Shown: one piece after another, positions 242 through 21,320 of the stretch
How the letters are laid out: each line of letters starts with the position of its first letter
Numbering within the stretch: the first letter of the stretch is position 1
Virus record (IMG/VR): IMGVR_UViG_3300032291_001980
Location: 1-21,320 of that record
Source of the DNA: a virus
DNA: 21,320 nt
Reading direction: 5' to 3' (one strand)
Program-made: the position numbers and the translations under genes
Notes under the pieces: generated by a model
Told to the model about the DNA's origin: nothing
What the model saw: the letters and a program-made list of their open reading frames with translations, nothing else
Databases searched by the model: none

Positions 242-823
242 TTGTCTATAACTAGAGCAAAGACCTCTAGTATCGCACAGGGGCCTTCAACTAATAGAAA
301 CCTTCTCGCTGGCAATCCTGTCATCCTGCCTGGAAGTTATGAGTCTATTCAGACCGTAACTGTAGGTGCTGGTGGTCAATCAACTATTACATTTAGTTCA
401 ATCCCAAGCACCTATAAACATTTACAAATTCGCGGTATAGCAAGAGGAACAGATAGTTCTTTAAGAGCATTGTTTTTATCTATAAACAGCACAGTAAATG
501 TAGTCAGAAGCCACTATCTTTATGGTGATGGTGCGACAGCATCAGCAGGTAGTCAGACAGCAAACCAAGTTGGATGGGGATTAGGGTCGGGTCAATTAGC
601 AAGCGCTTTTTCTGTTGCTGTAATAGATATTTTGGATTATGCCAATACTAATAAAAATAAAGTTACTCGTTCTTTAGCAGCAAATGACCTTAACGGTTCA
701 GGAAATATTGCTTTATTCTCTGAACTGTTTGATACAACAGTAGCAATTAACGCGGTTAACCTTACTTTAGAAGTCGGTAATTTTGCTCAATACTCTTCCT
801 TCGCTCTGTATGGGATACTCTAA
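242..823 (+). CDS. Tail-appendage paralog A (copy 1)
   Basis: A 193-aa protein with a TTG start directly after the upstream TAA; a GGAGACG sequence lies upstream. It is the first of six paralogs that share two hallmarks: a central SIPxxYxxLxL motif (here SIPSTYKHLQIRGIAR, about residues 53-68) and a C-terminal LYGI (here ALYGIL at the end). Between them are a YGDGATAS-type motif and a VIDILDYANTNKNK segment. It pairs specifically with the gene at 2460-2969, which shares YKHLQIR-x-IAR, VIDILDY and NGSG-x-I-x-LFS. It lacks a signal peptide or transmembrane segment. Such single-domain beta-rich proteins occur at the distal end of phage tails; a receptor-binding or decoration role is inferred. 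Confidence 0.75.
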   Translation: MSITRAKTSSIAQGPSTNRNLLAGNPVILPGSYESIQTVTVGAGGQSTITFSSIPSTYKHLQIRGIARGTDSSLRALFLSINSTVNVVRSHYLYGDGATASAGSQTANQVGWGLGSGQLASAFSVAVIDILDYANTNKNKVTRSLAANDLNGSGNIALFSELFDTTVAINAVNLTLEVGNFAQYSSFALYGIL

Positions 824-1315
824 ATGCCAATTACTTACACACCGATAGCGACTACAACACTTGGCAGCAATACTGCCACAGTTACTTTCAGCAGTATCCC
901 TGCGACCTACACAGACTTAGTTTTAGTCGCTAACACTAAGAACACCACAACAGGGGTTAATTCGCTTCAAATGGCTTTCAATTCCGACACCGCATCAAAC
1001 TACAGTTTTACTATCCTTTACGGTGACGGAACTTCCGCTACATCTGCTCGTTATTCATCTCAAACCGTAGGCGTGGCAGGTTGGGATAGCACTACAAACT
1101 TTACTCCAACGATTATTAACATTCAGAATTATGCAAATACTACAACTTTTAAGACAGCAATATCACGCTCATCAGATGCAGGTGGTCGAGTTACTGCGTT
1201 CGTCAATTTATGGCGTAAAACTCCAGAGGCTATAACTACCGTCAGCCTTACTTCACAAAGCAGCCAATTCGTTACAGGCTCAACCTTTACCCTATACGGC
1301 ATACTCAAGGCTTAA
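824..1315 (+). CDS. Tail-appendage paralog B (copy 1)
   Basis: A 163-aa protein whose ATG follows the previous TAA with no gap. It has the family layout: SIPATYTDLVLV near residue 25, YGDGTSATSAR in the middle, and a TLYGILKA end. Its closest relative in the window is the gene at 2973-3479 (shared TYTD, NYS, YANT-x-T-x-KT and NLWR). The text matches a domain seen repeatedly in distal tail proteins of environmental phages. No catalytic motif is visible. Likely a virion component, probably part of a fibre tip or baseplate decoration; the fold is unassigned from sequence alone. Confidence 0.75.
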   Translation: MPITYTPIATTTLGSNTATVTFSSIPATYTDLVLVANTKNTTTGVNSLQMAFNSDTASNYSFTILYGDGTSATSARYSSQTVGVAGWDSTTNFTPTIINIQNYANTTTFKTAISRSSDAGGRVTAFVNLWRKTPEAITTVSLTSQSSQFVTGSTFTLYGILKA

Positions 1316-1325
1316 GGAGACTACA

Positions 1326-1835
1326 TTGGCATTTACATATAGCAAACTAGCCGAGACAACCGTTGGTGCTGGTGGTGCATCAGCCATCACCTTCAATAAT
1401 ATTCCGCAGAACTATACCGACCTAGTATTAAAGATTTCAGGCAGAATAAGTATTGCTCAAATCTATGGCGCTTTCTGGTTAAACATTAACGGAACTACAA
1501 CTAACCGTACTTACCGTTATCTAGAAGGCAACGGCGCTAGCGCATCTAGTGGCTCTGGAACTAATACAAATATCTCAACTGGTGAAGGTAATAGCAATAC
1601 TGCTAACACTTTTGCTAATGTTGAACTGTACTTTCCTAACTACACTTCTAGCAACTACAAGTCTTGGAGTACTGACTCGGTAGGCGAGAATAACGCAACT
1701 ACTTCCTATATGGATTTGTATGCAAGTCTTTGGTCTAATGTTGCAGCAATAAATCAATTAAGTATTCTTCCTGAGTCTGGAACAATTCAGCAATACAGCA
1801 CAGCCTATCTCTACGGAATACGGGTAGAAATTTGA
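1326..1835 (+). CDS. Tail-appendage paralog C (copy 1)
   Basis: A 169-aa protein with a TTG start preceded by a strong AAGGAG ribosome-binding site 5-6 nt away. Family motifs: NIPQNYTDLVLKISGR near residue 25, GNGASASSGSG in the middle, a GENNATTS segment and a YSTAYLYGI end. It pairs with the gene at 3479-3982, which shares IPQ-x-YTDL, SGR, NENNATS, LWS and QYSTA-x-LYGI. Its stop overlaps the TTG start of the following HNH endonuclease gene by three bases, so the endonuclease is translationally coupled to it. Probable distal tail protein. Confidence 0.75.
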   Translation: MAFTYSKLAETTVGAGGASAITFNNIPQNYTDLVLKISGRISIAQIYGAFWLNINGTTTNRTYRYLEGNGASASSGSGTNTNISTGEGNSNTANTFANVELYFPNYTSSNYKSWSTDSVGENNATTSYMDLYASLWSNVAAINQLSILPESGTIQQYSTAYLYGIRVEI

Positions 1836-2383
1836 GTGCAGTTTCTTTTGTTACTTGCTCCGTAGATGAGTGTGAGAACAAAGCATTTGCTAGGACTTGG
1901 TGCAATAAACACTACATAAGATGGCGCACTTATGGAAACCCAACAGTACCCCTTAGGGAGAAGAAGCCATTGGAATGTACGGTTGATAAATGTAGTGATA
2001 AATACCTTGCGTCAGGTTATTGTACTAAGCATTATAGTAGAGTTCGTAATCATAATAATGTAGATGCTGACAATAGAAAAACAGGAAGAAAGTGGGTCAA
2101 CTCTTCTAGTGAATATATTTTAGTATCCGCACCAGAACACCCTAATGCAAACCATAGCGGCAGGATTCCTGAACATAGATTAATTATGTCTTTACATCTT
2201 GGTCGCCCTTTGGTTGACAAAGAAAATGTTCATCACATCAATGGTGATAAAAAAGATAATAGAATAGAAAACCTAGAACTATGGACTGTACATCAACCTA
2301 AGGGACAACGGGTTTCCGATAAGGTTGCATATGCAATAGAGATTCTTTCTTTATACGCACCAGAAAGATTGGCAGGTAACTAA
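1832..2383 (+). CDS. HNH endonuclease with two N-terminal zinc fingers (homing type)
   Basis: A 183-aa protein. Residues 9-27 and 49-67 form two fingers with identical spacing, C-x4-C-x9-C-x2-H. The C-terminal half carries an HNH_3-type nuclease core: EHRLIMSLHLGRPL, then VHHINGDKKDNRIENLELW (His134-His135, Asn143). Free-standing HNH genes of this type usually cleave an allele that lacks them and spread by repair. The TTG start overlaps the stop of the upstream tail gene. The gene lies exactly between two copies of a three-gene tail cassette and appears to have displaced the start of the downstream tail gene. That it acts as a homing endonuclease is inferred from family and position; the cut site is unknown. 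Confidence 0.88.
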   Translation: MSAVSFVTCSVDECENKAFARTWCNKHYIRWRTYGNPTVPLREKKPLECTVDKCSDKYLASGYCTKHYSRVRNHNNVDADNRKTGRKWVNSSSEYILVSAPEHPNANHSGRIPEHRLIMSLHLGRPLVDKENVHHINGDKKDNRIENLELWTVHQPKGQRVSDKVAYAIEILSLYAPERLAGN

Positions 2384-2459
2384 AATTTCCATAACTAAAC
2401 TAACCACCAACGGTATAGCAGGGGCTAAGTACGATACCGTATCTGCAGACAACTACTAT

Positions 2460-2969
2460 ATGGAGCCGATTGCTACTAACTTGCTTAGTAGTGGTGTTGC
2501 AGACTTTACCTTTACTAATATCCCGCAGGGATATAAGCACCTACAAATTAGATTTATTGCTAGAACTGCTAGAGCAAGTTTTCAAGATGACAATATGGCT
2601 ATGCAATTAAATGGTGATACTGGTACTAACTATGCCTATCATCAGTTAAGCGGAGAGGGTTCAGCCGCGTCTGCGTCTGCAGTAACAACAAATGCGGATA
2701 TGCGTGTTGGCAGACTAACTGCTGCAACTGCTAATGCTGCAAATTTTGGTGTTGGAGTTATAGATATTCTTGATTACTCTAATGTAAATAAGTTTAAGAC
2801 ACTACGAACTCTAAGTGGAAATGAATTTAACGGTTCAGGAACTATTACTTTGTTTTCTGGCTTGTGGCAAAATACTGCTGGAATAACTTCTATAAGATTA
2901 TTTTCACAAACTGGGTCAAATAATTTACAGGCAAATTCCCGCTTCTCACTTTACGGAATCCGAGGATAA
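2460..2969 (+). CDS. Tail-appendage paralog A' (copy 2), 5' end altered by the HNH insertion
   Basis: From the first ATG (2460) the protein has 169 aa, with NIPQGYKHLQIRFIAR near residues 24-39, VIDILDYSNVNKFK, NGSGTITLFS and a SLYGIRG end. It is the closest relative of the gene at 242-823. No ribosome-binding site precedes the ATG. The frame is open for another 25 codons upstream to 2385, and this extension (SITKLTTNGIA) aligns with the N-terminus of the 242 gene (SITRAKTSSIA). The position matching that gene's TTG start is now ATT (2385), only two bases after the HNH stop, with AGG about 8 nt before it. The true start may therefore be a rare ATT codon at 2385, or the protein may be N-terminally shortened. 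Confidence 0.7.
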   Translation: MEPIATNLLSSGVADFTFTNIPQGYKHLQIRFIARTARASFQDDNMAMQLNGDTGTNYAYHQLSGEGSAASASAVTTNADMRVGRLTAATANAANFGVGVIDILDYSNVNKFKTLRTLSGNEFNGSGTITLFSGLWQNTAGITSIRLFSQTGSNNLQANSRFSLYGIRG

Positions 2970-2972
2970 CAA

Positions 2973-3479
2973 ATGTCTAAGACTGCTACCTATTCGCTGA
3001 TTGCAAGTTATACAACAACTGGCAGCGTTTCTACCTATACCTTTTCTTCAATCCCAAGCACTTACACAGACATTATTGTGGTTGCAAATTTTCAACTTTC
3101 AACAGAAACAGGGTTTCGTGGCAGAGTTAATGGCGATACTGGCTCTAATTATTCTTTAACAAACCTTGGTGGCAACGGAACTGCTGCTTCAAGTGGGCGA
3201 GAAAGCAATGCTACAAACTGGGTACTTGGCGGTTTTCCTACAAACGCATCAACGGCTTATGATAACAATGCAATTATCCACTATATGGATTATGCAAATA
3301 CCTCAACCTATAAGACAGTAATAAATCGCTTTAATAGTGCAAGTAAAGAAACTATGGCAAATGCTAATTTATGGCGTAACACCGCAGCCATTAACTCAAT
3401 TACTCTTTATGTAGCATCAGGCAATTTTGTTAACGGTTCTATATTCAAACTCTACGGGATACAGGCAGGTAATGCTTAA
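2973..3479 (+). CDS. Tail-appendage paralog B' (copy 2)
   Basis: A 168-aa protein with an ATG start and GAGGATAAC as ribosome-binding site, three bases after the previous stop. Family motifs are SIPSTYTDIIVV (about residues 26-37), GGNGTAASSGR, MDYANTSTYKT, NLWRNTAAIN and a KLYGIQ end. It is most like the B gene at 824-1315. The TAA overlaps the ATG of the next gene by one base. No signal peptide, membrane segment or enzyme motif is visible. Probable distal tail component in the repeated cassette. Confidence 0.75.
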   Translation: MSKTATYSLIASYTTTGSVSTYTFSSIPSTYTDIIVVANFQLSTETGFRGRVNGDTGSNYSLTNLGGNGTAASSGRESNATNWVLGGFPTNASTAYDNNAIIHYMDYANTSTYKTVINRFNSASKETMANANLWRNTAAINSITLYVASGNFVNGSIFKLYGIQAGNA

Positions 3480-3982
3480 TGGCGCTACAATTATATAGGA
3501 TTGCTACCGTAGAAGTTGGCTCTGCTGGTTCAGCAAGTATTGCTTTTAGTTCTATACCACAAGGTTATACTGATTTGAAGTTAGATTTTAGTGGGCGCAC
3601 AAACTACACAGGTGCTGCAAATGATGGCGTAACACTTGCTTTTAATGGTTCAACGGCTAATTTTACTACTCGTTTTCTTTTTGGTGATGGCAGCGCTGCT
3701 GCCTCTAGCACTTCTGGAAGTTATACTGCAGGAATTACGGGAGCAAACGCAACCACTAATGCCTTTGGTAGTGGCAGTATTTATATACCTAATTATGCAG
3801 GTGCTACAAATAAATCAGTATCTTTAGATACAGTAAATGAAAACAATGCAACATCTGCTTTACAATTATTAGGTGCAACTCTTTGGTCGGTAACTTCTGC
3901 AATTAATTCAGTAACGATTACACCTAGTTTTGGCACACTTTGGAATCAATACTCAACAGCAACACTCTACGGAATCCTTTAG
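3479..3982 (+). CDS. Tail-appendage paralog C' (copy 2)
   Basis: A 167-aa protein with its ATG in a TAATG overlap. Motifs: SIPQGYTDLKLDFSGR (about residues 25-40), LFGDGSAAAS, VNENNATSA, LWSVTSAINS and QYSTATLYGIL at the C-terminus. It pairs with the C gene at 1326-1835 and completes the second A-B-C set. It is the last of the paralogs; the next gene starts after a short spacer with its own ribosome-binding site. Probable virion tail protein, function inferred. Confidence 0.75.
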   Translation: MALQLYRIATVEVGSAGSASIAFSSIPQGYTDLKLDFSGRTNYTGAANDGVTLAFNGSTANFTTRFLFGDGSAAASSTSGSYTAGITGANATTNAFGSGSIYIPNYAGATNKSVSLDTVNENNATSALQLLGATLWSVTSAINSVTITPSFGTLWNQYSTATLYGIL

Positions 3983-9392: not shown

Positions 9393-9569
9393 TTACCCAC
9401 CCGTAGAGTAAAAGCCAGTTCCCTTGAACTGCACAGCAGGTGCTGAATAGACCCTTGATGAGGTCATTCCACACTGCGGACAGTTGATCTCAGTCTCGCG
9501 CTCGCGGTAGGAGCGGATCGTTTCAAATAGGTGTTCGCATTTATTACACTTGTACTCGTAGGTAGGCAC
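9393..9569 (-). CDS. FmdB-type zinc-ribbon protein
   Basis: A 58-aa protein read from GTG at 9569, with GGGAG about 7 nt upstream; a longer frame to 9608 overlaps the upstream gene and is not supported. Text: VPTYEYKCNKCEHLFE, INCPQCG, and a C-terminal FKGTGFYSTGG. This is the FmdB regulatory-protein zinc ribbon (Cys8, 11, 30, 33; conserved FKG-x-GFY end). Such proteins occur widely in bacteria and actinophages; the role is unclear, possibly nucleic-acid or protein binding. It is the last of four overlapping leftward genes and ends next to the terminator. Confidence 0.82.
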   Translation of the reverse strand: MPTYEYKCNKCEHLFETIRSYRERETEINCPQCGMTSSRVYSAPAVQFKGTGFYSTGG

Positions 9570-9571
9570 GG

Positions 9572-9697
9572 TTATCTCCCTGGAGGGAAGCAGTAGCAAT
9601 CCCAACATTGATATTCATCGCCGTCTACGATAGTAAAAGCATCTTCTTCGCTATTGATTACTTTGTCGCACAACTGACATTTCTCGTATTCAACCAT
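9572..9697 (-). CDS. 41-aa Cys-rich zinc-ribbon microprotein
   Basis: ATG at 9697 overlaps the TAA of the upstream gene (TAATG), and its own TAA lies two bases before the next GTG. The sequence MVEYEKCQLCDKVINSEED .. YQCWDCYCFPPGR has CxxC pairs at residues 7-10 and 31-34 (plus Cys36), as in a zinc ribbon or small treble-clef. Tight coupling on both sides supports translation. No function can be named. Confidence 0.62.
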   Translation of the reverse strand: MVEYEKCQLCDKVINSEEDAFTIVDGDEYQCWDCYCFPPGR

Positions 9698-9807
9698 TAG
9701 TGAGGCTCCCAACATGATAGGCATTGTTTACAGTAACTGGTCTCGTCACAGATATCACAGGTAGTGTGATCTGTCCAAGTATCGCATAATTCGCACGGCA
9801 TTTTCAT
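9697..9807 (-). CDS. 36-aa Cys-rich microprotein
   Basis: ATG at 9807 in an ATGA overlap with the upstream stop; TAA at 9699-9697 overlaps the next ATG. Seven Cys in 36 residues are arranged CELC, CDIC, CKQC-x2-C, which would make a compact zinc cluster. Second ATG at 9801 is an alternative start. Supported by the overlaps and Cys spacing; function unknown. Confidence 0.58.
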   Translation of the reverse strand: MKMPCELCDTWTDHTTCDICDETSYCKQCLSCWEPH

Positions 9808-9980
9808 TTGGTCATGTCCCTTGCGTAAGAAGTTAGGTGGATAAACCCACACTGATTACAAACGTATGGGTGTTGGTTGAGCCACTTGTGTTTCTTCAAG
9901 AAAGACTTAGCGTGGGACTTGCAAGCCCAGCGCCTTTTAGTGGCACATACTTCGGGTGATGTTTTTAGTTTAGTTGTCAT
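9804..9980 (-). CDS. 58-aa basic zinc-ribbon protein, first gene of leftward operon
   Basis: ATG at 9980 lies six bases after a good extended -10 element, so the mRNA is probably leaderless. Sequence: VCATKRRWACKSHAKSFLKKHKW, then YVCNQCGFIHL; Cys12/20 and Cys41/44 could bind zinc, and the central part is strongly basic (RNA- or DNA-binding is possible). Its TGA overlaps the next ATG (ATGA). No named family recognised. Confidence 0.62.
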   Translation of the reverse strand: MTTKLKTSPEVCATKRRWACKSHAKSFLKKHKWLNQHPYVCNQCGFIHLTSYARDMTK

Positions 9981-14047: not shown

Positions 14048-14388
14048 TGTTAATGCCAGTTGACGGACACTTTAGTTGTCAGGACGATTGCGACTTCACC
14101 ACCTGTAATGTATTTGAATTCCTTGACCACTGTGGTGTTGAGTTCGGTTGGGAAGTAAAACTTAGCAAGCGCTACTCATTTGATCTATTCACCTTCTTAA
14201 AGATCCTTAATGAACTTGTAGATCAAGGCGATTTAGATGGCATCTTTGACCATGTACAGAGCGCTACAACCCTTATGGTCAATGCATCTGATGATGAACT
14301 AGAAGATTACATTGAAGAGGCTGTTGTAGCCTCAGAGATGAAAGACATAATCAACGGCGCAGAAAGGCTCCTCAAAGACAATGAGTAA
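14047..14388 (+). CDS. Hypothetical acidic protein
   Basis: A 113-aa protein with a TAATG start overlap. Two N-terminal Cys pairs (CQDDCDF, TTCNVFEFLDHCG) and a helix-rich, strongly acidic C-terminal half (SDDELEDYIEEAVVASEM). No family is recognised. Context in the replication operon and overlap with the next gene (ATGAGTAA) support it as real. Confidence 0.62.
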   Translation: MLMPVDGHFSCQDDCDFTTCNVFEFLDHCGVEFGWEVKLSKRYSFDLFTFLKILNELVDQGDLDGIFDHVQSATTLMVNASDDELEDYIEEAVVASEMKDIINGAERLLKDNE

Positions 14389-14689
14389 AGCGGAAACGAT
14401 AGAAGATCCAACCAAATTCGAACTAGACTTGTGGAGCAACGTCGATGAACTTACTAACTTACTGCTCAGAAAGCATAACGATTACGGCCCAAAGAATATC
14501 TCTCAAAGCCCAGGAGGCCCCCTCAACGGGCTTAGGGTCAGAATGTGGGACAAGATCGCACGTATCAATCACCTACTCGAAAGTGGTAAGGACGCAGAAA
14601 ATGAGTCACTACAAGACTCCTACGCCGACCTTGCAAACTATGCTATAATCGGACTAATGGTACTGAAAGGACAATGGCCTGATGAATAA
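14381..14689 (+). CDS. DUF1599-like (nucleotide-modification-associated) protein
   Basis: A 102-aa helical protein. Conserved text LLLRKHNDYGPKNIS, GLRVRMWDKIARINHLLESG and ESLQDSYADLANYAIIGLMVL fits the DUF1599 / nucleotide modification associated domain 1 family, which is MazG-like in build (acidic residues on helices for nucleotide binding). It may act on nucleotide pools or modified bases. It overlaps both neighbours by eight bases. Family assignment is good; the reaction is not established. Confidence 0.72.
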   Translation: MSKAETIEDPTKFELDLWSNVDELTNLLLRKHNDYGPKNISQSPGGPLNGLRVRMWDKIARINHLLESGKDAENESLQDSYADLANYAIIGLMVLKGQWPDE

Positions 14690-15175: not shown

Positions 15176-15912
15176 AAAACATAGTCTGTATTTCTGATCT
15201 TCAAGTCCCATATCACGATGTAGAAGCCACGAAGGCAGTGGCGAAGTTCATTCAATGGTATCAACCAGAGACAGTCGTATCCTGTGGTGACGAAATGGAT
15301 ATGCAGACTATTTCAAAATGGAGTAAGGGAACCGAACTAGAGTTCGAACGATCTATTGGTCGTGACCGTGATCTTACTCGTCAAGTCTTGTATGACTTAA
15401 CCGTTGAACATATGGTGCGTAGTAATCATACGGATCGATTGTTCACAACAGTTGCTATGAGAGCGCCAGGACTTCTTGGTTTGCCTGAGTTGCAATTAGA
15501 AAACTTTCTTGGACTTAAAGAACTTGAGATCCAATATCATTCTGACCCATACGAACTAGCCCCAGGCTGGTTGCTTATGCATGGTGATGAAGGAAACGTA
15601 CAGCCTACGGCTGGCGCTACTGCATTGGGTTTAGCGAAACGCTCAGGTATGTCTGTAGTGTGTGGTCACACGCATCGCATGGGTCTCACACATCAGACTC
15701 AAACATATCGTGGTGGTAAGCCTAAAACTATTTGGGGTATGGAACTTGGTAATCTTATGGATTACCGTAATGCAAAATATATCAAGGCAGGGTTGTTCAC
15801 TTGGCAACAGGGCTTTGGTATCTTGCATGTGGACGGTAAGAACGTCACACCGCAGTTAGTTCCTATCATTAACAATTCATTTACTGTGGATGGAAAAACA
15901 TTTAAGTGGTAG
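15172..15912 (+). CDS. Metallophosphoesterase (calcineurin-like)
   Basis: A 246-aa protein with a GTG start in a GTGA overlap. Metal-ligand motifs appear in the usual order: ISDLQVPYHD (Asp9, Gln11, His15), CGDEMD (about 38-43), RSNHTDR (Asn85-His86), LLMHGDE (His137) and VCGHTHRMG (His166, His168). Gln in place of the first-motif His (DLQ for DxH) is a known variant in phage and Mre11-like members. It may hydrolyse phosphodiester bonds in DNA, RNA or nucleotides. Its stop overlaps the sigma-like gene. Confidence 0.85.
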   Translation: MKNIVCISDLQVPYHDVEATKAVAKFIQWYQPETVVSCGDEMDMQTISKWSKGTELEFERSIGRDRDLTRQVLYDLTVEHMVRSNHTDRLFTTVAMRAPGLLGLPELQLENFLGLKELEIQYHSDPYELAPGWLLMHGDEGNVQPTAGATALGLAKRSGMSVVCGHTHRMGLTHQTQTYRGGKPKTIWGMELGNLMDYRNAKYIKAGLFTWQQGFGILHVDGKNVTPQLVPIINNSFTVDGKTFKW

Positions 15913-16607
15913 TAGATACAGACAAATACGATCAACTTGTAGCGCATATCGCCTATGAGTTTAGCCGTAAGTTTCACATGATTGATGCCGATGATGTGCG
16001 ACAGGAACTATGGATATGGTTCTTGGAACACCCTAACAAGGTAAAGACATGGGAAGCATTAGACGGCAAGCAGTCTATTAAGTTGATTGCTAGATCGTTG
16101 CGTAACGCGGCTAAGGACTACTGCCAGAAGCAGAAGGCTCAGGCTGTGGGCTATCGTGTAGAGGACAACTACTACTACGACAGAGAACTGATCGAAGCGC
16201 TATTACCTTCTGTTATCAGGGGTGATCTTGTAGCACCATCTATTCAAGACTTAGGGTATATTACTGGCAAGAAGGTAGCCTCCGAAGGTGGCAACTGGTT
16301 CGCTATGGTCGCAGACATACAGCGTGGGTTTGCTAAGTTAGATGAAAAGCAGATGAGTATGTTGTATCTTCGTTTCGGCGATGGATGTGATAACAAGACC
16401 TTTGCTAACGAGTTAGGCATCTCAGAAGATGCAGCACGTATGAGAGTTAACAGATCAGTGAACAACTTAATAAATATTCTTGGTGGCAGTAAGCCACGCA
16501 GGGAACGGGACTACACGGAAGAGGAAGCCAATGCAAGAGAACTTGAGCCAGACACCGCAGATATTTCAATGGCTGGAGACGAAGTTAGCGGACAAGACTT
16601 GGACTGA
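15906..16607 (+). CDS. Sigma-70-like factor
   Basis: A 233-aa protein with a GTG start overlapping the phosphoesterase gene by seven bases. A region-2-like part (about 8-80: HMIDADDVRQELWIWFLEH, then SIKLIARSLRNAAKDYC) and a region-4-like helix-turn-helix (about 158-205: FAKLDEKQMSMLYLRFGDG, then FANELGISEDAARMRVNRS) resemble ECF-type sigma factors. The two parts are joined by about 70 residues (DNYYYDRELIEALLPSVI and on). The C-terminus is acidic. It could direct host RNA polymerase to phage promoters. Its target is unknown; the shared TGTTAnnnT promoters are one candidate set. It could also be a terminase- or recombination-type HTH protein. Confidence 0.7.
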   Translation: MVVDTDKYDQLVAHIAYEFSRKFHMIDADDVRQELWIWFLEHPNKVKTWEALDGKQSIKLIARSLRNAAKDYCQKQKAQAVGYRVEDNYYYDRELIEALLPSVIRGDLVAPSIQDLGYITGKKVASEGGNWFAMVADIQRGFAKLDEKQMSMLYLRFGDGCDNKTFANELGISEDAARMRVNRSVNNLINILGGSKPRRERDYTEEEANARELEPDTADISMAGDEVSGQDLD

Positions 16608-16893: not shown

Positions 16894-17051
16894 TCTGCAC
16901 ACCATGTAAGTCAGCAGGCTTAGCCAACTCCACTGGAGATTTCGCTATCGCTATTATGCTGCACCAGAATTGTATTGTCGGTTGTTTTTGCCAGCATAAG
17001 ACAGGCGATCACTGGCTAAAGAAGGCAAAGAAAAAGCCCCCCACCAATTAA
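16890..17051 (+). CDS. 53-aa Cys-rich protein, last gene of the replication operon
   Basis: ATG in an ATGA overlap with the previous gene. CTPCKSAG near the N-terminus and NCIVGCFCQHKTGDHW in the middle give two Cys pairs plus His, as in a small zinc finger; the end is Lys-rich. Its last codons (KKPPTN and stop) lie inside the hairpin that terminates the opposing operon. Similar short CxxC proteins are encoded by many actinophages; function unknown. Confidence 0.58.
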   Translation: MICTPCKSAGLANSTGDFAIAIMLHQNCIVGCFCQHKTGDHWLKKAKKKPPTN

Positions 17052-17061
17052 GGTGAGGGGC
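17029..17061 (-). terminator. Rho-independent terminator of the leftward accessory operon
   Basis: On the minus strand, GCCCCTCACC and GGTGGGGGGC form a 10-bp stem (one G-U pair) around a six-base loop and are followed by TTTTTCT. The stem overlaps the 3' end of the rightward gene 16890-17051 and touches the palindrome at 17063. Confidence 0.85.
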
Positions 17062-17062
17062 G

Positions 17063-17079
17063 TGTACGATTATCGTACA
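17063..17079. repeat. 17-bp palindrome, copy 1 of 7
   Basis: TGTACGATTATCGTACA: 8-bp arms around one central base. This copy is at the end of the leftward operon, two bases from the terminator hairpin. The TAA stop of gene 17070-17186 comes from the palindrome centre. Confidence 0.9.
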
Positions 17080-17186
17080 GTTGCTATTCTTAGGTGAGAT
17101 ATCCAGAAGCACTCCATACATACGGGGAAGCCTTCTAGAGTTGTATCTGTTACGGGTATGCGCGTTTTACAATTAGGACATTTCAT
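17070..17186 (-). CDS. 38-aa zinc-ribbon microprotein
   Basis: ATG at 17186 follows the previous TAG directly. MKCPNCKTRI at the start and VCMECFW in the middle give two CxxC pairs, a minimal zinc ribbon. The stop codon is formed by the centre of the palindrome. It is the last gene before the terminator. Function unknown. Confidence 0.6.
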   Translation of the reverse strand: MKCPNCKTRIPVTDTTLEGFPVCMECFWISHLRIATVR

Positions 17187-17378
17187 CTAGTGTATCGTTG
17201 GTGCATAGATCGGCACTACATTAGCATTGACTAACTTATCACCATGAGATATTGCTTCCTCTGCGGTTGAAAAAATACCGTAGACAGCGGTATCTCCTTC
17301 TGGCGCATTAGTAATAGTTATCCAACCTAACTGCATCATAGAGTCGCTTGCACGATGTACCTCTATTGTTGTAGTCAT
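17187..17378 (-). CDS. Hypothetical 63-aa protein
   Basis: ATG at 17378 with AAAGGA about 6 nt upstream, preceded by palindrome copy 2 and a promoter, so it is the first gene of the last sub-cassette. MTTTIEVHRASDS, GWITITNAPEGDTAVYGIFSTAEEAISHGDKL: a short beta-beta-helix layout with no Cys, reminiscent of small single-domain phage proteins. No family recognised. Confidence 0.6.
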   Translation of the reverse strand: MTTTIEVHRASDSMMQLGWITITNAPEGDTAVYGIFSTAEEAISHGDKLVNANVVPIYAPTIH

Positions 17379-17395
17379 TACTATCCTTTCGCTAG

Positions 17396-17412
17396 TGTAC
17401 GATTATCGTACA
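17396..17412. repeat. 17-bp palindrome, copy 2 of 7
   Basis: TGTACGATTATCGTACA, 17 bases upstream of the ATG at 17378 and just after the 5'-terminal hairpin of the transcript predicted from the promoter at 17460-17488. Confidence 0.9.
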
Positions 17413-17415
17413 GTA

Positions 17416-17454
17416 GGTGAGTGGCTACAAGCATCGGGCAAGTAGCCACCCACC
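17416..17454 (-). promoter_or_regulatory. 5'-terminal mRNA hairpin
   Basis: GGTGaGTGGCTAC (17416-17428) and GTAGCCACcCACC (17442-17454) pair over 12 of 13 positions around a 13-base loop. On the minus strand it begins at about the predicted first transcribed base and is followed by the palindrome. No T-run follows, so it is not an ordinary terminator. Confidence 0.65.
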
Positions 17455-17459
17455 CTCTT

Positions 17460-17488
17460 AGTATAGCCTAACTAGAGTGCTAAAGCAA
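17460..17488 (-). promoter_or_regulatory. Leftward promoter within the accessory operon
   Basis: Minus strand TTGCTT (17488-17483), 17-base spacer, TATACT (17465-17460). The -35 lies in the 3' end of gene 17472-17591. The start of transcription would be at about 17453. Confidence 0.65.
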
Positions 17489-17591
17489 GTATCGGCACTA
17501 TGACCGCGATTATCCCAACGGACAACCACAGCATAAAGATCAACTGCTCTACCACACTTTCTACTTCGTAGTTATCATCTTCGTTTAACAT
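17472..17591 (-). CDS. 39-aa single-pass membrane microprotein
   Basis: ATG at 17591 with a very strong AGGAGG ribosome-binding site about 8 nt upstream, located over the end of the WhiB gene. Acidic N-terminus MLNEDDNYEVESVVEQ, then one long hydrophobic helix LIFMLWLSVGIIAVIVPILALAL to the C-terminus. The strong RBS argues for real translation. It may act on the host membrane; function unknown. Confidence 0.65.
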   Translation of the reverse strand: MLNEDDNYEVESVVEQLIFMLWLSVGIIAVIVPILALAL

Positions 17592-17593
17592 AG

Positions 17594-17932
17594 TTAACCC
17601 TCCTGTAATTTAACACCCTCAACCCAGCCTTGACTAGACATAGGTATCGTAGTGTGAAACGGAATAACGCTCTTACCGTCTTGCAACTTAGAGCGTTCAG
17701 AAGGGTCTAACCCTGCCCAGATACCATGTAACCCAGAGTAACGCAGTGCGTACTCTAAGCACTCAGGATTAGCAGGACATGAGCGACAGATCGCCTTCGC
17801 CTGCATTGACTCCTCGTTGCGGTAATGGCTAGAGTCGGTAGCATATTTGCGTTCAGGGAACCACATATCGGGATCACTGGACGCGCATAAGGCTTGCTCT
17901 TCAAAGAAGGCGACATGGTGATGATTACTCAT
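17594..17932 (-). CDS. WhiB-family Fe-S transcriptional regulator
   Basis: A 112-aa protein. The four Cys of the 4Fe-4S cluster are present: Cys16 (ALCASSDPDMWFPE), then Cys49, Cys52 and Cys58 (CRSCPANPEC), followed by LEYALRYSGLHGIWAGL with the G-[IV]-W-G/A-G turn (70-75) and a basic SERSKL. WhiB proteins exist only in actinobacteria and their phages and act by binding sigma factor region 4 and promoter DNA. In phage TM4 a WhiB protein alters host division and blocks superinfection. The start overlaps the upstream gene by eight bases. A sigma-like gene is present in the same genome (15906-16607). Confidence 0.93.
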   Translation of the reverse strand: MSNHHHVAFFEEQALCASSDPDMWFPERKYATDSSHYRNEESMQAKAICRSCPANPECLEYALRYSGLHGIWAGLDPSERSKLQDGKSVIPFHTTIPMSSQGWVEGVKLQEG

Positions 17933-18086
17933 ACTGGTCTACTTCCCCTCTAGCATCAGCCATACTTACTGCACCGATCTTTGCCATAGCACAACTGTGG
18001 CAGTAGTTTCGTTCAGCGTAATCATGCACAGCCACTTGGATCAGTGTCCTGCATGAATAACACTTACACGATCTATATTTATCCAT
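17925..18086 (-). CDS. 53-aa Cys-rich zinc-finger protein
   Basis: ATG at 18086 with GAGGAAGGA upstream, directly after palindrome copy 3. CKCYSCRTL (Cys7, 9, 12) and YCHSCAMAKIG (Cys29, 32) form a zinc-finger-like set. The stop overlaps the WhiB ATG (ATGAGTAA), so it is coupled to WhiB translation. The start overlaps the end of gene 18079-18288 by eight bases. Function unknown; could be a small regulator working with WhiB. Confidence 0.62.
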   Translation of the reverse strand: MDKYRSCKCYSCRTLIQVAVHDYAERNYCHSCAMAKIGAVSMADARGEVDQYE

Positions 18087-18288
18087 TTATTCCTTCCTCT
18101 GTACGATTATCGTACACAGTGGGCAGTTGTCCTGCCAACTCTTGATAGTGCGTGGCTCGCACCATCAGTTTTGCATGGTCTTGCGACCTTCCTTCACGAA
18201 GCGCTTGTTGCGCGTCATGTAGGAATAACTCGGCGCGTACGCCGTAGTAGTATGGAGTAGGTGGCACTGGTACATGAGGCTTACTCAT
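18079..18288 (-). CDS. Hypothetical 69-aa protein ending in palindrome-encoded peptide
   Basis: Start ATG 18288, chosen because it shows the same ATGAGTAA overlap with the upstream gene as its neighbours; a longer frame to 18303 exists. MSKPHVPVPPTPYYYGVRAEL, then a helix (LHDAQQALREGRSQDHAKLMVRATHYQELAGQL). The C-terminus VYDNRTEEGING is read through palindrome copy 3 plus the next gene's ribosome-binding site. The same YDNRTEEG ending occurs in gene 20661-20888. Confidence 0.6.
   Translation of the reverse strand: MSKPHVPVPPTPYYYGVRAELFLHDAQQALREGRSQDHAKLMVRATHYQELAGQLPTVYDNRTEEGING
18100..18116. repeat. 17-bp palindrome, copy 3 of 7
   Basis: TGTACGATTATCGTACA, 13 bases upstream of the ATG at 18086 and inside the coding end of gene 18079-18288 (encodes VYDNRT on the minus strand). 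Confidence 0.9.
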
Positions 18289-19135
18289 AGGTAGCCCACC
18301 CACCTTTGGTAGGGTAGTTGGGTTCCCATGTATTCCATAGGGTCTTTTCTACTGAGTCCTTATCGTAGCCTGAACCCTTGTAGCATAAGCACTCGGTTAC
18401 ATAGGTTTTGCAATCTACGCAAGTACCACACTGCTTGCAATAGCCGTCTATCATCTGAGAAGCCTCGAAGAAAGACTCGCAAGTTTCGCAATCTACCCAC
18501 TTCTCAGCCTTATCATCTTTAAGTCCGTAGGAATACGGACTAGCAAAGCCAGATGAAGGGGTTGATAGATAGCAACTCTGGTTAGACCACCAGACACCGC
18601 TACTATCCTTCCAACCCTTGTTCTCGTGCAGTATATAGCACTGGTGCTTAGCGCGTGGATCAACGGTAAGGATTACAACCTTAGAGCCTTGCGTGAAGTC
18701 CTCTAAGATATTCCAGACCTGATCGTTATCTAGGGCAGTTACGCCACCGATAGCAGGCAAGATATCCTCAGCGAAGATACGCGTATCGCTACGAGTATCA
18801 CCTACTGGCTCAAGCACTGGCAAGATACCGTTATGGGCTAGATAAGTCTGCGTGTTACCTATTCCAACTTGGAAAGGGTGGCAGTTATCTACGGTGGTCG
18901 AACCATGAGTAGCGTATCGGGCATGCCATGTAGCATAACCTTCTGGATACTTCTCTCTCATCTCTAGGAAGCGTGAGATCGAAGCATCTGCGTTCATGGT
19001 GCGTTCTACATGGATACGGTTCTCGCTAGGGATAACGATAGCGAAGCCGAAGCCGTCTGGATTATTGAGAGCAGAGTTTTCTAACTTCTCTCGTGTGGGT
19101 ATTAAATTAGGCGGGATTACACATAGCATACACAT
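18281..19135 (-). CDS. Class-II glutamine amidotransferase-like protein with C-terminal zinc ribbon
   Basis: A 284-aa protein. The N-terminal Ntn-hydrolase domain (about 1-205) has Cys2 as nucleophile after Met removal (MCMLCVIPPN), PDGFGFAIV (26-34), WHARYATHG (70-78), DNCHPFQVG (83-91), YLAHNGILP (98-106) and SDTRIFAEDI, all expected positions of class-II GATases. These release ammonia from glutamine for a partner synthetase. The C-terminal 70 residues have eight Cys (CETC, CKQC-x2-C-x2-C, CLC), a double zinc ribbon. It stands directly downstream of the amidoligase-like gene, a likely partner. Start ATG 19135 follows palindrome copy 4. Confidence 0.8.
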   Translation of the reverse strand: MCMLCVIPPNLIPTREKLENSALNNPDGFGFAIVIPSENRIHVERTMNADASISRFLEMREKYPEGYATWHARYATHGSTTVDNCHPFQVGIGNTQTYLAHNGILPVLEPVGDTRSDTRIFAEDILPAIGGVTALDNDQVWNILEDFTQGSKVVILTVDPRAKHQCYILHENKGWKDSSGVWWSNQSCYLSTPSSGFASPYSYGLKDDKAEKWVDCETCESFFEASQMIDGYCKQCGTCVDCKTYVTECLCYKGSGYDKDSVEKTLWNTWEPNYPTKGGWATYE

Positions 19136-19150
19136 AGCATTACTCTTTTC

Positions 19151-19167
19151 TGTACGATTATCGTACG
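19151..19167. repeat. 17-bp palindrome, copy 4 of 7
   Basis: TGTACGATTATCGTACG (last base differs), in the 33-base gap between the amidoligase stop (19169) and the amidotransferase start (19135). Confidence 0.9.
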
Positions 19168-19168
19168 G

Positions 19169-20668
19169 TTAGTCGATCTCTTGGACGGGCGTATCATTAT
19201 CGAAGGTGCTTTGGATAGCATTGACTAGATTAGGATATGTCTCCGCTTGGTCGGCTACGAAGCGTACGAAGTGAATCCATTTTAGGGCGTTGTTGTTGCC
19301 GTTCACCTTGAGATCACGAGTGTACTCAACGGAAGCGTGAACCAACTCAACAGCAGACAGCACGCGCGCAGGTTTAAGCGAGCCTCGAAAGACTCGGACT
19401 TCCAGCGTTTTCTCGTTCTGACTATTGACCGCCTCATAGCGATCATCTTGGCTACCATACTTAACGCGGTTAGCAAGGCTACCCTTATCGTTAAACTTGG
19501 CATAGTGAGATGAGCGCCCTGCAAGGCGTTCGATCTGGCGTTGGTTGTCGTAGATCAGTTTAATAAACCGCAACTCGTGGGCTTGCGACTTTACTATGTC
19601 TGATCTATTAAGCACCTCACCGAAGGCAGTACGGCTCACATGTACATGCAGACCGCAGGTATTGGTATGCCATGAACGGAAGCCCTGCTTGCGCAGACCA
19701 GTTAAGGTTTCCCAATTAAACTTCTTTTGCAACTCCTCCAGAGAGTGAGGGTGCGACACGATCTCGAACCCTTCCTCCAGTGAGCCGTCATTTTTAAGGT
19801 ACACGCGTGGGCTAAGATGATCAACCACATACGAAGCACCTGCTCTCCGACTATTACCCTCGGACTCCACTTCTAACTCAAAGCCAAAGTAATACTTAGC
19901 CTGACCAAAGAAGTGAGGGCGTGGGCGATAACTATAATCGTGGATAAGGTTGCTACTTATATCCTCATCGCACTCATGGCTATTTTCTGACCAGTATTGC
20001 TCACTGCACTCACTGCACTCATAGACATTGTTCTCATAGCAACGATAACAGTAGCGACTACCGTTAAAGGTACGAGAGTCTGCGTTTAACTCGTACGAAC
20101 TGCACTCATCACAGTAGAAGAAGGCGGCTTCGCCGTACTCTTGCTTCACTTCGGTAACGCATTTCGGACAGATAACATCTCCCAGATACTTATCAAAGTC
20201 TGTAAAGACTAGTCCGTCTCGGCTTGCTTGGTAATCATATGAGGCATGAGTAACGGTGCATCTATCGCAAGATGTAGTGCAACAAGCATGGGCTTGGATA
20301 GTATTGCCCTCTCCGTCAAACACTTCTAACTTACGGTAACTAGCCGTACCGAAAGGGTGATAGCAGACATGGCAGTTATCCTCATCAAACTTAGGCAAGG
20401 TTATTGCTTCTCTCATATTCCGCATATCCTGAGACTCGGAATACATCACCTCATATTTAGCATGCCACTCTTCGCTAAGCCCAGTTAATTCTGATACGGA
20501 TCGCAAAGTGTCTTGGAACTTCTGAACTAAACAGTATCCACAACCTATGAAGTTGTGAACCATTGAGTTGGCGTATAGGTGGCGTGGCTTCTGGCACCTC
20601 TCGCACACTCCAGTTTCTATGAAAGCCCAAGTGTTGCTAGGGCTAAACACAGTATCGTTATTAGGCAT
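19169..20668 (-). CDS. Cys-rich amidoligase-family protein (Amidoligase_2-like)
   Basis: A 499-aa protein with a GAAGGAG ribosome-binding site. Residues 1-235 hold about nine Cys pairs (22/25, 43/46, 99/102, 134/137, 167/170, 186/189, 207/210, 218/221, plus 129/130 and 233), i.e. a chain of zinc ribbons. Residues about 255-450 match the glutamine-synthetase-like amidoligase core: YYFGFELEVESEG (259-271), KNDGSLEEGFEIVSHP (292-307), NTCGLHVHVSR (336-346) and TLEVRVFRGSLKP (421-433). The family is predicted to form amide bonds between a carboxyl group and an amine using ATP, in peptide, protein or wall modification. The amidotransferase next to it fits as a partner. The substrate is unknown. 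Confidence 0.8.
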   Translation of the reverse strand: MPNNDTVFSPSNTWAFIETGVCERCQKPRHLYANSMVHNFIGCGYCLVQKFQDTLRSVSELTGLSEEWHAKYEVMYSESQDMRNMREAITLPKFDEDNCHVCYHPFGTASYRKLEVFDGEGNTIQAHACCTTSCDRCTVTHASYDYQASRDGLVFTDFDKYLGDVICPKCVTEVKQEYGEAAFFYCDECSSYELNADSRTFNGSRYCYRCYENNVYECSECSEQYWSENSHECDEDISSNLIHDYSYRPRPHFFGQAKYYFGFELEVESEGNSRRAGASYVVDHLSPRVYLKNDGSLEEGFEIVSHPHSLEELQKKFNWETLTGLRKQGFRSWHTNTCGLHVHVSRTAFGEVLNRSDIVKSQAHELRFIKLIYDNQRQIERLAGRSSHYAKFNDKGSLANRVKYGSQDDRYEAVNSQNEKTLEVRVFRGSLKPARVLSAVELVHASVEYTRDLKVNGNNNALKWIHFVRFVADQAETYPNLVNAIQSTFDNDTPVQEID

Positions 20669-20888
20669 CTACTTCTCCTTCTTCTGTACGATTATCGTAC
20701 GCATTGTCTGATCTCTTTAGGTGAGTGGTAGTGCGGTATCCGATCTCTTGGACTTCGCGCCATGTAAGGAAGGTTAGAGCGTGGGCTATGAATAGGTTAG
20801 CCTCTGCCCCTGCTTGCAGGATATCGTAGACGAACTCCTGCTTCTGATAGTGAGTAGCCTTGATACCGCCGAGACGATAACTAGCCAT
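20661..20888 (-). CDS. Hypothetical 75-aa protein ending in palindrome-encoded peptide
   Basis: ATG at 20888 in a TAATG overlap with the upstream gene; its stop overlaps the amidoligase ATG (ATGCCTAA). Text: MASYRLGGIKATHYQKQEFVYD, helical LQAGAEANLFIAHALTFLTWREV, then RSDNAYDNRTEEGEVDA. The last residues are translated from palindrome copy 5 and the following ribosome-binding site, as in gene 18079-18288. No family recognised. Confidence 0.6.
   Translation of the reverse strand: MASYRLGGIKATHYQKQEFVYDILQAGAEANLFIAHALTFLTWREVQEIGYRTTTHLKRSDNAYDNRTEEGEVDA
20685..20701. repeat. 17-bp palindrome, copy 5 of 7
   Basis: TGTACGATTATCGTACG, 16 bases upstream of the amidoligase ATG (20668) and inside the coding end of gene 20661-20888. 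Confidence 0.9.
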
Positions 20889-21058
20889 TACATGCCCTGC
20901 TTGTCTATATCTTGCTCGGCTTGGAAGTAAGCCTCGCGCCAGTAATTGCGCGACTCGGTGAGTCGGTGGTTCGCAACGGCTGTGCTTACGAGCAGACCAA
21001 CCGTAACTGTGAGCGCGATAGTGATAGCCACTATGTCGCTCATTAGTAGAGTTACCAT
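20888..21058 (-). CDS. 56-aa single-pass membrane protein
   Basis: Start ATG 21058 is chosen because GAAAGG precedes it and palindrome, hairpin and promoter lie upstream; an in-frame ATG at 21121 would place them in the coding part. Sequence: MVTLLMSDIVAITIALTVTVGLLVSTAVA forms one membrane helix (about 8-29), then a charged helix RLTESRNYWREAYFQAEQDIDKQGM. It is the first gene after the main leftward promoter, so probably expressed early. Function unknown. Confidence 0.6.
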   Translation of the reverse strand: MVTLLMSDIVAITIALTVTVGLLVSTAVANHRLTESRNYWREAYFQAEQDIDKQGM

Positions 21059-21080
21059 AACCTGACCTTTCAGTAGTTGC

Positions 21081-21097
21081 CGTACGATTATCGTACA
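21081..21097. repeat. 17-bp palindrome, copy 6 of 7
   Basis: CGTACGATTATCGTACA in the predicted 5' UTR of the leftward operon, 22 bases before the ATG at 21058 and three bases after the 5'-terminal hairpin. Confidence 0.9.
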
Positions 21098-21099
21098 GC

Positions 21100-21123
21100 G
21101 AGTAGATATAGGAATATCCACTC
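21100..21123 (-). promoter_or_regulatory. 5'-terminal mRNA hairpin
   Basis: GAGTAGATAT (21100-21109) and ATATCCACTC (21114-21123) form a 10-bp stem (one G-U pair in the minus-strand RNA) with a four-base loop, starting at about the first transcribed base. Confidence 0.65.
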
Positions 21124-21127
21124 TCTA

Positions 21128-21156
21128 AGAATACGGCATGGGGGTGGCTAAGTCAA
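21128..21156 (-). promoter_or_regulatory. Main leftward promoter
   Basis: Minus strand TTGACT (21156-21151), 17-base spacer, TATTCT (21133-21128): a close match to the vegetative sigma-70/SigA consensus, giving a start at about 21121. Confidence 0.78.
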
Positions 21157-21320
21157 ATGAAATACGACTACGACCACCGAGCGACTACGGCTACCGATAC
21201 GCCCACGCCAACACAAACCTCTCCGCCGTACGACTATCGTACGCAGTTCGCAGAGCGACTATTTCTATCTCCCGAACGCCCAACACAAACTCGCCCGACA
21301 CAAAGTGTCGGACACAAACT
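21157..21320 (+). CDS. Possible rightward gene, 3' end outside the window
   Basis: ATG at 21157 opens a frame without stop to the window edge (54 codons): MKYDYDHRATTATDTPTPTQT, PPYDYRTQFAERLFLSPERP, TQTRPTQSVGHK. There is only a weak ribosome-binding site (GGGGGTGG, about 10 nt upstream) and no clear rightward promoter. The frame passes through palindrome copy 7 (YDYRT). A competing leftward frame is open from the edge to a TAG at 21193-21191 and also reads the palindrome as YDSRT. Which strand codes cannot be settled here. Confidence 0.3.
   Translation, partial: MKYDYDHRATTATDTPTPTQTSPPYDYRTQFAERLFLSPERPTQTRPTQSVGHK
21211..21320. repeat. ACACAAA direct repeats and a 7-bp inverted repeat at the window edge
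   Basis: ACACAAA occurs at 21211, 21283, 21298 and 21312, the last three spaced 15 and 14 bases. CCGACAC (21295-21301) and GTGTCGG (21305-21311) form an inverted repeat with a three-base loop among them. The array may continue beyond the window. Confidence 0.55.
21227..21243. repeat. 17-bp palindrome, copy 7 of 7 (variant centre)
   Basis: CGTACGACTATCGTACG: one base next to the centre differs (C for T), breaking one arm pair. On the minus strand it is followed by GGAGAGG, an RBS-like sequence at the spacing seen at other copies. Confidence 0.85.

Follow-up and report, generated by a model that had tools for sequence, protein, structure and literature searches.

What do two adjacent genes in an environmental phage genome make together, and what controls them? 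The window analysed here is a whole virus contig of 21,320 bp with 45.2% G+C, and its right arm carries a leftward gene cluster, probably a single operon, of small genes, a gene for a WhiB-like protein, one for a glutamine amidotransferase (GATase) and, upstream of the latter, one for an amidoligase. The last two genes almost certainly form an enzyme pair. Both lie on the minus strand, the GATase 33 bp downstream of the amidoligase, stop to start. An earlier note, made from the sequence alone, had the coordinates, the motifs and the 33-base gap all correct; it did not give the strand. The features of the pair and its regulator-like neighbour are:

19169..20668, minus strand: first enzyme of the pair, a GS-fold amidoligase (Amidoligase_2) of 499 aa (PF12224, Foldseek, invariant catalytic residues)
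19970..20605, minus strand: residues 22-233 of the amidoligase, a predicted zinc array near the N-terminus with five probable four-ligand sites, partly LIM-like (ligand conservation, weak LIM profile matches)
19226..19924, minus strand: residues 249-481 of the amidoligase, its GS-like catalytic domain, with GFELEVE, KNDGSL, CGLHVHVSRT and LEVRVFRG
18281..19135, minus strand: second enzyme of the pair, a class-II (Ntn) glutamine amidotransferase of 284 aa (PF13230, Foldseek, MCMLC start)
18566..19132, minus strand: residues 2-190 of the GATase, its Ntn catalytic domain, with Cys2, R73, T76, H86, N102, G103 and D117
18383..18490, minus strand: residues 216-251 of the GATase, a predicted zinc tail at the C-terminus with two probable four-Cys sites (Cys conservation; pattern as in Marvin gp106)
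17594..17932, minus strand: WhiB-like regulator, in the operon of the pair (PF02467, E 2.1e-17)

The first protein had been proposed to be an amidoligase of the glutamine synthetase (GS) fold, and profile, structure and conservation all agree with that assignment. It matches PF12224 with 24.4 bits (cut-off 22), a family also matched by 51 of 53 relatives at E<=0.01. An AlphaFold model built from the alignment of its relatives has a mean pLDDT of 88 and a GS/GCS-like fold; when it was compared with the PDB using Foldseek, only proteins of the glutamine synthetase superfamily were returned down to an E value of 1e-3, the best being YbdK, glutamine synthetase, GmaS, Dop and PafA (E 1e-6 to 1e-4). 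The whole-chain TM-scores of these matches are low (0.23-0.29), which we attribute to the approximately 230 N-terminal residues of the zinc region, for which there is no counterpart. The GS-fold residues E264, E266, E268, D294, E302, H341, H343, N415, E423 and R425 are invariant in 66 sequences, and with them the acidic, HxH and ExR active-site motifs of Amidoligase_2.

The assignment of the second protein to the class-II GATases is likewise supported by the profile search and structure prediction that the earlier note had proposed for both proteins. It matches PF13230 with 37.8 bits (cut-off 23), a family also matched by 56 of 56 relatives, and its AlphaFold model, likewise from an alignment of relatives, has a mean pLDDT of 85 and the Ntn fold. 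All 73 GATase relatives start with MCMLC, which places the cysteine nucleophile directly after the initiator methionine, and the catalytic and glutamine-binding residues listed above are all invariant in 56 aligned sequences. The best Foldseek matches in the PDB are the glutaminase domain of GlmS/GFAT, followed by PurF and EgtC (E 4e-8 to 1e-4).

These fold matches bear on what the pair does. The GATase fold is also used by hydrolases such as EgtC, which in ergothioneine synthesis removes the glutamate that a gamma-glutamyl ligase has joined to an amine. The two phage proteins could similarly write and erase a modification, the GS-fold enzyme joining glutamate or another carboxylate to an amine and the Ntn protein serving as the amidohydrolase that removes it. 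The top fold matches of the ligase are indeed carboxylate-amine ligases of the YbdK type, EgtC is among the matches of the GATase, and the residues recognising a gamma-glutamyl group would be identical in both cases. The GATase, however, is best matched by the glutaminase domain of GlmS/GFAT and by PurF, and we consider such opposing activities unlikely.

A second property shared by the two proteins is their richness in cysteine. The amidoligase contains 20 cysteines, including eight strict CxxC motifs, and the GATase 13. Grouped by spacing, they suggest five probable zinc sites on the amidoligase (C22 C25 C43 C46; C99 C102 H127 C130; C134 C137 C167 C170; C186 C189 C207 C210; C218 C221 H231 C233) and two on the GATase tail (C216 C219 C233 C236; C239 C242 C249 C251). 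The amidoligase groups are nearly invariant in a 53-sequence alignment and the eight cysteines of the GATase tail are kept in 71-73 of 74 sequences. In both proteins, conservation of the putative ligands comes close to that of the active sites. Five four-ligand groups give a better description of the amidoligase than the "about nine N-terminal Cys pairs" of the earlier note. The term "zinc ribbon" is only approximate, since groups 2 and 3 of the amidoligase have their ligands in the LIM order (C-C-H-C / C-C-C-C) and its profile gives a weak match to LIM proteins (E 0.017).

How consistently the two genes occur together was examined in viral contigs. A scan for the GATase yielded 73 loci and a scan with the amidoligase alignment 578 relatives, of which the best 80 were used; after de-duplication 105 distinct loci remained. 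The genes are adjacent in 98 of these and fused in one, and the contig ends in the other six. The earlier note would have given up its proposal had the two genes rarely co-occurred in other phages; they are adjacent in 98 of 98 distinct loci with room for both, in addition to the fusion. The gap between them is 29-36 bp in one set of relatives, while in the other the stop and start codons overlap or lie 1-3 bp apart, as expected for translationally coupled partners. Such near-obligatory adjacency and coupling fit the subunits of one enzyme better than a pair that writes and erases. When the pair was compared with that of near relatives, dN/dS was 0.11-0.28 in nine of ten cases and 0.52 in the tenth, where dS was only 0.09; judged by these ratios, the pair is under purifying selection. 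The fusion (L158:2443-4023) joins the amidoligase domain in frame to a GATase without residues 1-11, including Cys2. Loss of the GATase in this contig was considered and rejected, as what is found is an in-frame fusion without the catalytic Cys2 segment, either a natural deletion or an assembly join.

The GATase query found no match in 84,980 cellular genomes, and in the same genomes the amidoligase was found on two distant MAG contigs, both with a GATase alongside (L173 and L174, labelled Patescibacteria and Eubacteriaceae). When the whole region was compared with phage records at the nucleotide level, no match was obtained.

The amidoligase-GATase pair is already known as a phage module, of which the one described here is a further member, and its novelty is therefore less than had been implied. 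The order of the two genes in the window is also found in mycobacteriophage Marvin, MEP402 and ctgrD200, as well as on the two bacterial MAG contigs. Marvin (Marvinvirus) gp105 and gp106 share order, orientation and approximately 35% identity with both proteins, as well as Cys clusters at the ligase N-terminus and the same eight-Cys pattern in the GATase tail. In contrast, the Marvin ligase has fewer N-terminal cysteines and an extra C-terminal extension, both Marvin proteins fall below the Pfam cut-offs, and the genome context differs. To our knowledge, no biochemistry has been reported for this amidoligase-GATase clade. Adjacent amidoligase and GATase genes are likewise present in the Methylophilales (OM43) phages MEP401 and MEP402 (PMC10580990), with 27-31% identity, but these infect a Gram-negative marine host and their GATase has no zinc tail. 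The biochemistry of the module was predicted by Iyer et al. 2009; we refer to this work and to Mageeney 2012 as cited in PMC10580990. According to the same source, the module of phiEco32 has been suggested to alter the cell wall so as to prevent superinfection, and that of Marvin to act in secondary metabolism and phage-host interaction. A paper on protein interactions of Giles was set aside as irrelevant, its mention of an amidoligase concerning a domain of the host CTP synthetase.

More distant clusters combine the same two enzyme families with further enzymes. Rhizobium phage RHph_N3_13 and LUZ24-like Pseudomonas phages carry both families in one cluster but have an additional ATP-grasp gene, and UFV-P2 also has a PF14395 ligase; the Rhizobium phage proteins lack the Cys clusters. 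This combination of amidoligase, GATase and ATP-grasp, together with the action of the GS-fold relatives PafA and Dop on isopeptide bonds, could be taken to mean that the ligase joins an amino acid, a polyamine or another amine to a protein carboxylate, leaving the GATase only a side role. Against this, no ATP-grasp gene or second ligase was found in relatives of the window, a search that is not decisive, since neither for RimK nor for PF14395 was there a positive control that worked on such divergent proteins. We regard this use of the ligase as quite improbable. Clostridioides phage AR1086-1 has a related amidoligase without a zinc region and with no recognisable GATase among the flanking genes examined; some members of the family may therefore act without one.

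Taken together, we hold it to be fairly probable that the pair is a two-subunit glutamine-dependent amide synthetase acting on the carboxylate of a target. Removal of the initiator methionine would expose the N-terminal cysteine of the GATase, which would split glutamine and pass the ammonia to the GS-fold amidoligase; the latter would use ATP to convert the target carboxylate, via an acyl phosphate, into an amide. The seven predicted zinc sites would most likely serve to bind the target, to join the two subunits, or both. From the comparisons above we thus infer that the pair has glutaminase and ligase activities, forms a complex, transfers ammonia, binds zinc and amidates its target. The zinc sites favour a macromolecular target over a small metabolite, and the target is probably macromolecular; the arrays suggest a protein or nucleic-acid target, or docking of the subunits. 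That phages of Gram-negative methylotrophs also carry the pair argues for a target that is not restricted to actinobacterial chemistry. The earlier note had named a host protein, a peptidoglycan peptide or a metabolite as candidates. The benefit to the phage may be host take-over, superinfection exclusion or protection. The module occurs in phages of unrelated hosts and, in this analysis, on about 100 distinct environmental virus contigs.

If nucleic acid were the target, the pair might hypermodify bases of the phage DNA, with the zinc domains binding DNA. Besides the zinc arrays themselves, the window encodes a DUF1599 protein ("nucleotide modification associated domain 1"; PF07659, 32.4 bits) at 14381-14689. 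This gene, however, sits in the replication module, far from the pair, and no gene of a base-modification pathway is present among the 25 of 32 families listed for a 41.9-kb relative of the window. Base hypermodification is thus very improbable, and an amide synthetase remains the reading we favour.

The second part of the question, how the pair is controlled, led to a set of perfect palindromes in the same gene cluster. They and the terminator of the operon are located as follows:

21227..21243: palindrome at the contig's right end
21081..21097: copy preceding the small gene 20888-21058
20685..20701: copy shortly before the start of the amidoligase gene
19151..19167: copy TGTACGATTATCGTACG, between the two pair genes, just upstream of the Shine-Dalgarno region of the GATase
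18100..18116: copy preceding the small gene 17925-18086
17396..17412: copy preceding the small gene 17187-17378
17063..17079: last copy, immediately ahead of the operon's terminator
17036..17061, minus strand: terminator-like hairpin closing the leftward operon, 10 pairs, 8 of them G-C, then TTTTTCTTTG

All seven copies of TGTACGATTATCGTACG lie in 17063-21243, with none elsewhere in the window and zero for a reversed-pattern control, and five of the seven are 14-23 bp upstream of start codons of the leftward cluster. We rejected the possibility that they are terminators in general, as a terminator scan lists just a single copy and assigns it to the strand opposite the operon's. A comparison with Rfam gave no match to a known RNA family.

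In relatives, the same gap or gene cluster carries a palindrome with other letters but matched arms, although some relatives have the pair without palindromes. At least 12 arm types were found (GTACGA, GTACGG, GGTCGG, GTTCGG, GTTAGG, GTTTGG, GTCTGA, GCAGGA, GTTGGA, GTAGGA, GTGCGA and GTGGGG), mostly in 4-11 copies per locus, compared with at most two in shuffled sequence. Six near-complete contigs each contain their own palindrome type and none of the three other types tested there, all copies being in this region. Several hundred copies are perfect and 11 have a single mismatch (four G-U, seven non-pairing), too few to choose between an RNA hairpin and a DNA operator.

A candidate for the protein that recognises these sites is encoded at the head of the cluster. 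It is about 200 aa long (L084:1703-2299, minus strand; L005:215-850, plus strand; L020:5268-6065, plus strand), has no Pfam match and no convincing PHROG match, and a search of 50,697 phage records with one member gave no match. By comparison with L005, a close relative that is approximately 90% identical to the window in both pair proteins, the corresponding gene of the window would fall just past the contig end. Among 146 loci, many of which share a contig and overlap, 75 carry palindromes together with the head protein, 57 neither, 11 only palindromes and three only the protein. The 11 loci with palindromes alone start no more than about 700 bp ahead of the ligase, which cuts off the position of the regulator, and the three with the protein alone come from two contigs with a palindrome whose spacing is one base wider.

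The association extends to sequence divergence. Among loci whose GATases have a similarity of at least 0.9 (normalised bit score), the median similarity of the putative regulators is 0.72 when the palindrome type is the same and 0.05 when it differs, a comparison of non-independent locus pairs that serves as description and carries no valid p-value. Intermediate regulator similarities (0.53-0.66) belong to the similar types GCAGGA, GTTGGA and GTAGGA. Regulator similarity thus follows palindrome type and not GATase similarity, which indicates that the regulator moves with the palindrome. By association, the head protein is a candidate cognate regulator of the palindromes.

These observations are reminiscent of the stoperators of cluster A mycobacteriophages (PMC6550527, PMC9283540), which are likewise many phage-specific sites across operons with a motif that tracks the regulator. 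Here, in contrast, the sites are perfectly palindromic and occur only within a single gene cluster, whereas stoperators are asymmetric (PMC6550527), and the candidate regulator matches no known family. Moreover, the cluster A phages with stoperators are temperate and have an integrase or a partition locus, whereas no integrase (PF00589 or PF00239) was matched in 32 contigs here, many of them fragments, with positive controls. We lean towards the view that an exchangeable, stoperator-like regulon carries the enzyme pair as cargo in freshwater actinophages that are apparently lytic. In this regulon an undescribed head protein would recognise phage-specific palindromes before the Shine-Dalgarno regions of successive genes, and at least 12 arm types would have evolved or been swapped with their symmetry kept. 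If so, related phages would be mutually orthogonal. This palindrome-regulator system is the more novel finding compared with the enzyme pair and, if confirmed, would provide a new regulator family with a natural set of orthogonal recognition specificities.

The window stems from a freshwater phage, and the WhiB-like gene in the operon marks it as actinobacterial. Its 41.9-kb relative has a terminase that shares 58% identity with the terminases of OX376640 and OX376641. These are the cultivated 'Ca. Planktophila' phages LanE43-AprE7 and -AprF5, in which many genes of the window have counterparts (helicase 67%, primase 58%, sigma factor 41-42%, WhiB 39%). The enzyme pair, the palindromes and the candidate regulator are all absent from both cultivated phages. 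The pair is thus accessory and not essential in this lineage; the isolates manage to lyse their host without it. With the related Planktophila phages lacking the pair and the Mycobacterium smegmatis phage Marvin carrying it, the question of its function becomes testable.

Several other genes of the window deserve mention. A sigma-70-like factor at 15906-16607 (PHROG 354, E 3e-22), common to the cultivated Planktophila phages, is a possible gene-expression switch. Four tiny genes at 9393-9980 (minus strand) are rich in Cys pairs, and one of them matches Zn_ribbon_8 (E 5e-13). Finally, about six adjacent genes at 242-3982 encode similar proteins of approximately 170 aa with a common motif resembling SIP.TY.DL, probably tail or receptor-binding modules, a run that is interrupted by a Cys-rich protein at 1832-2383.
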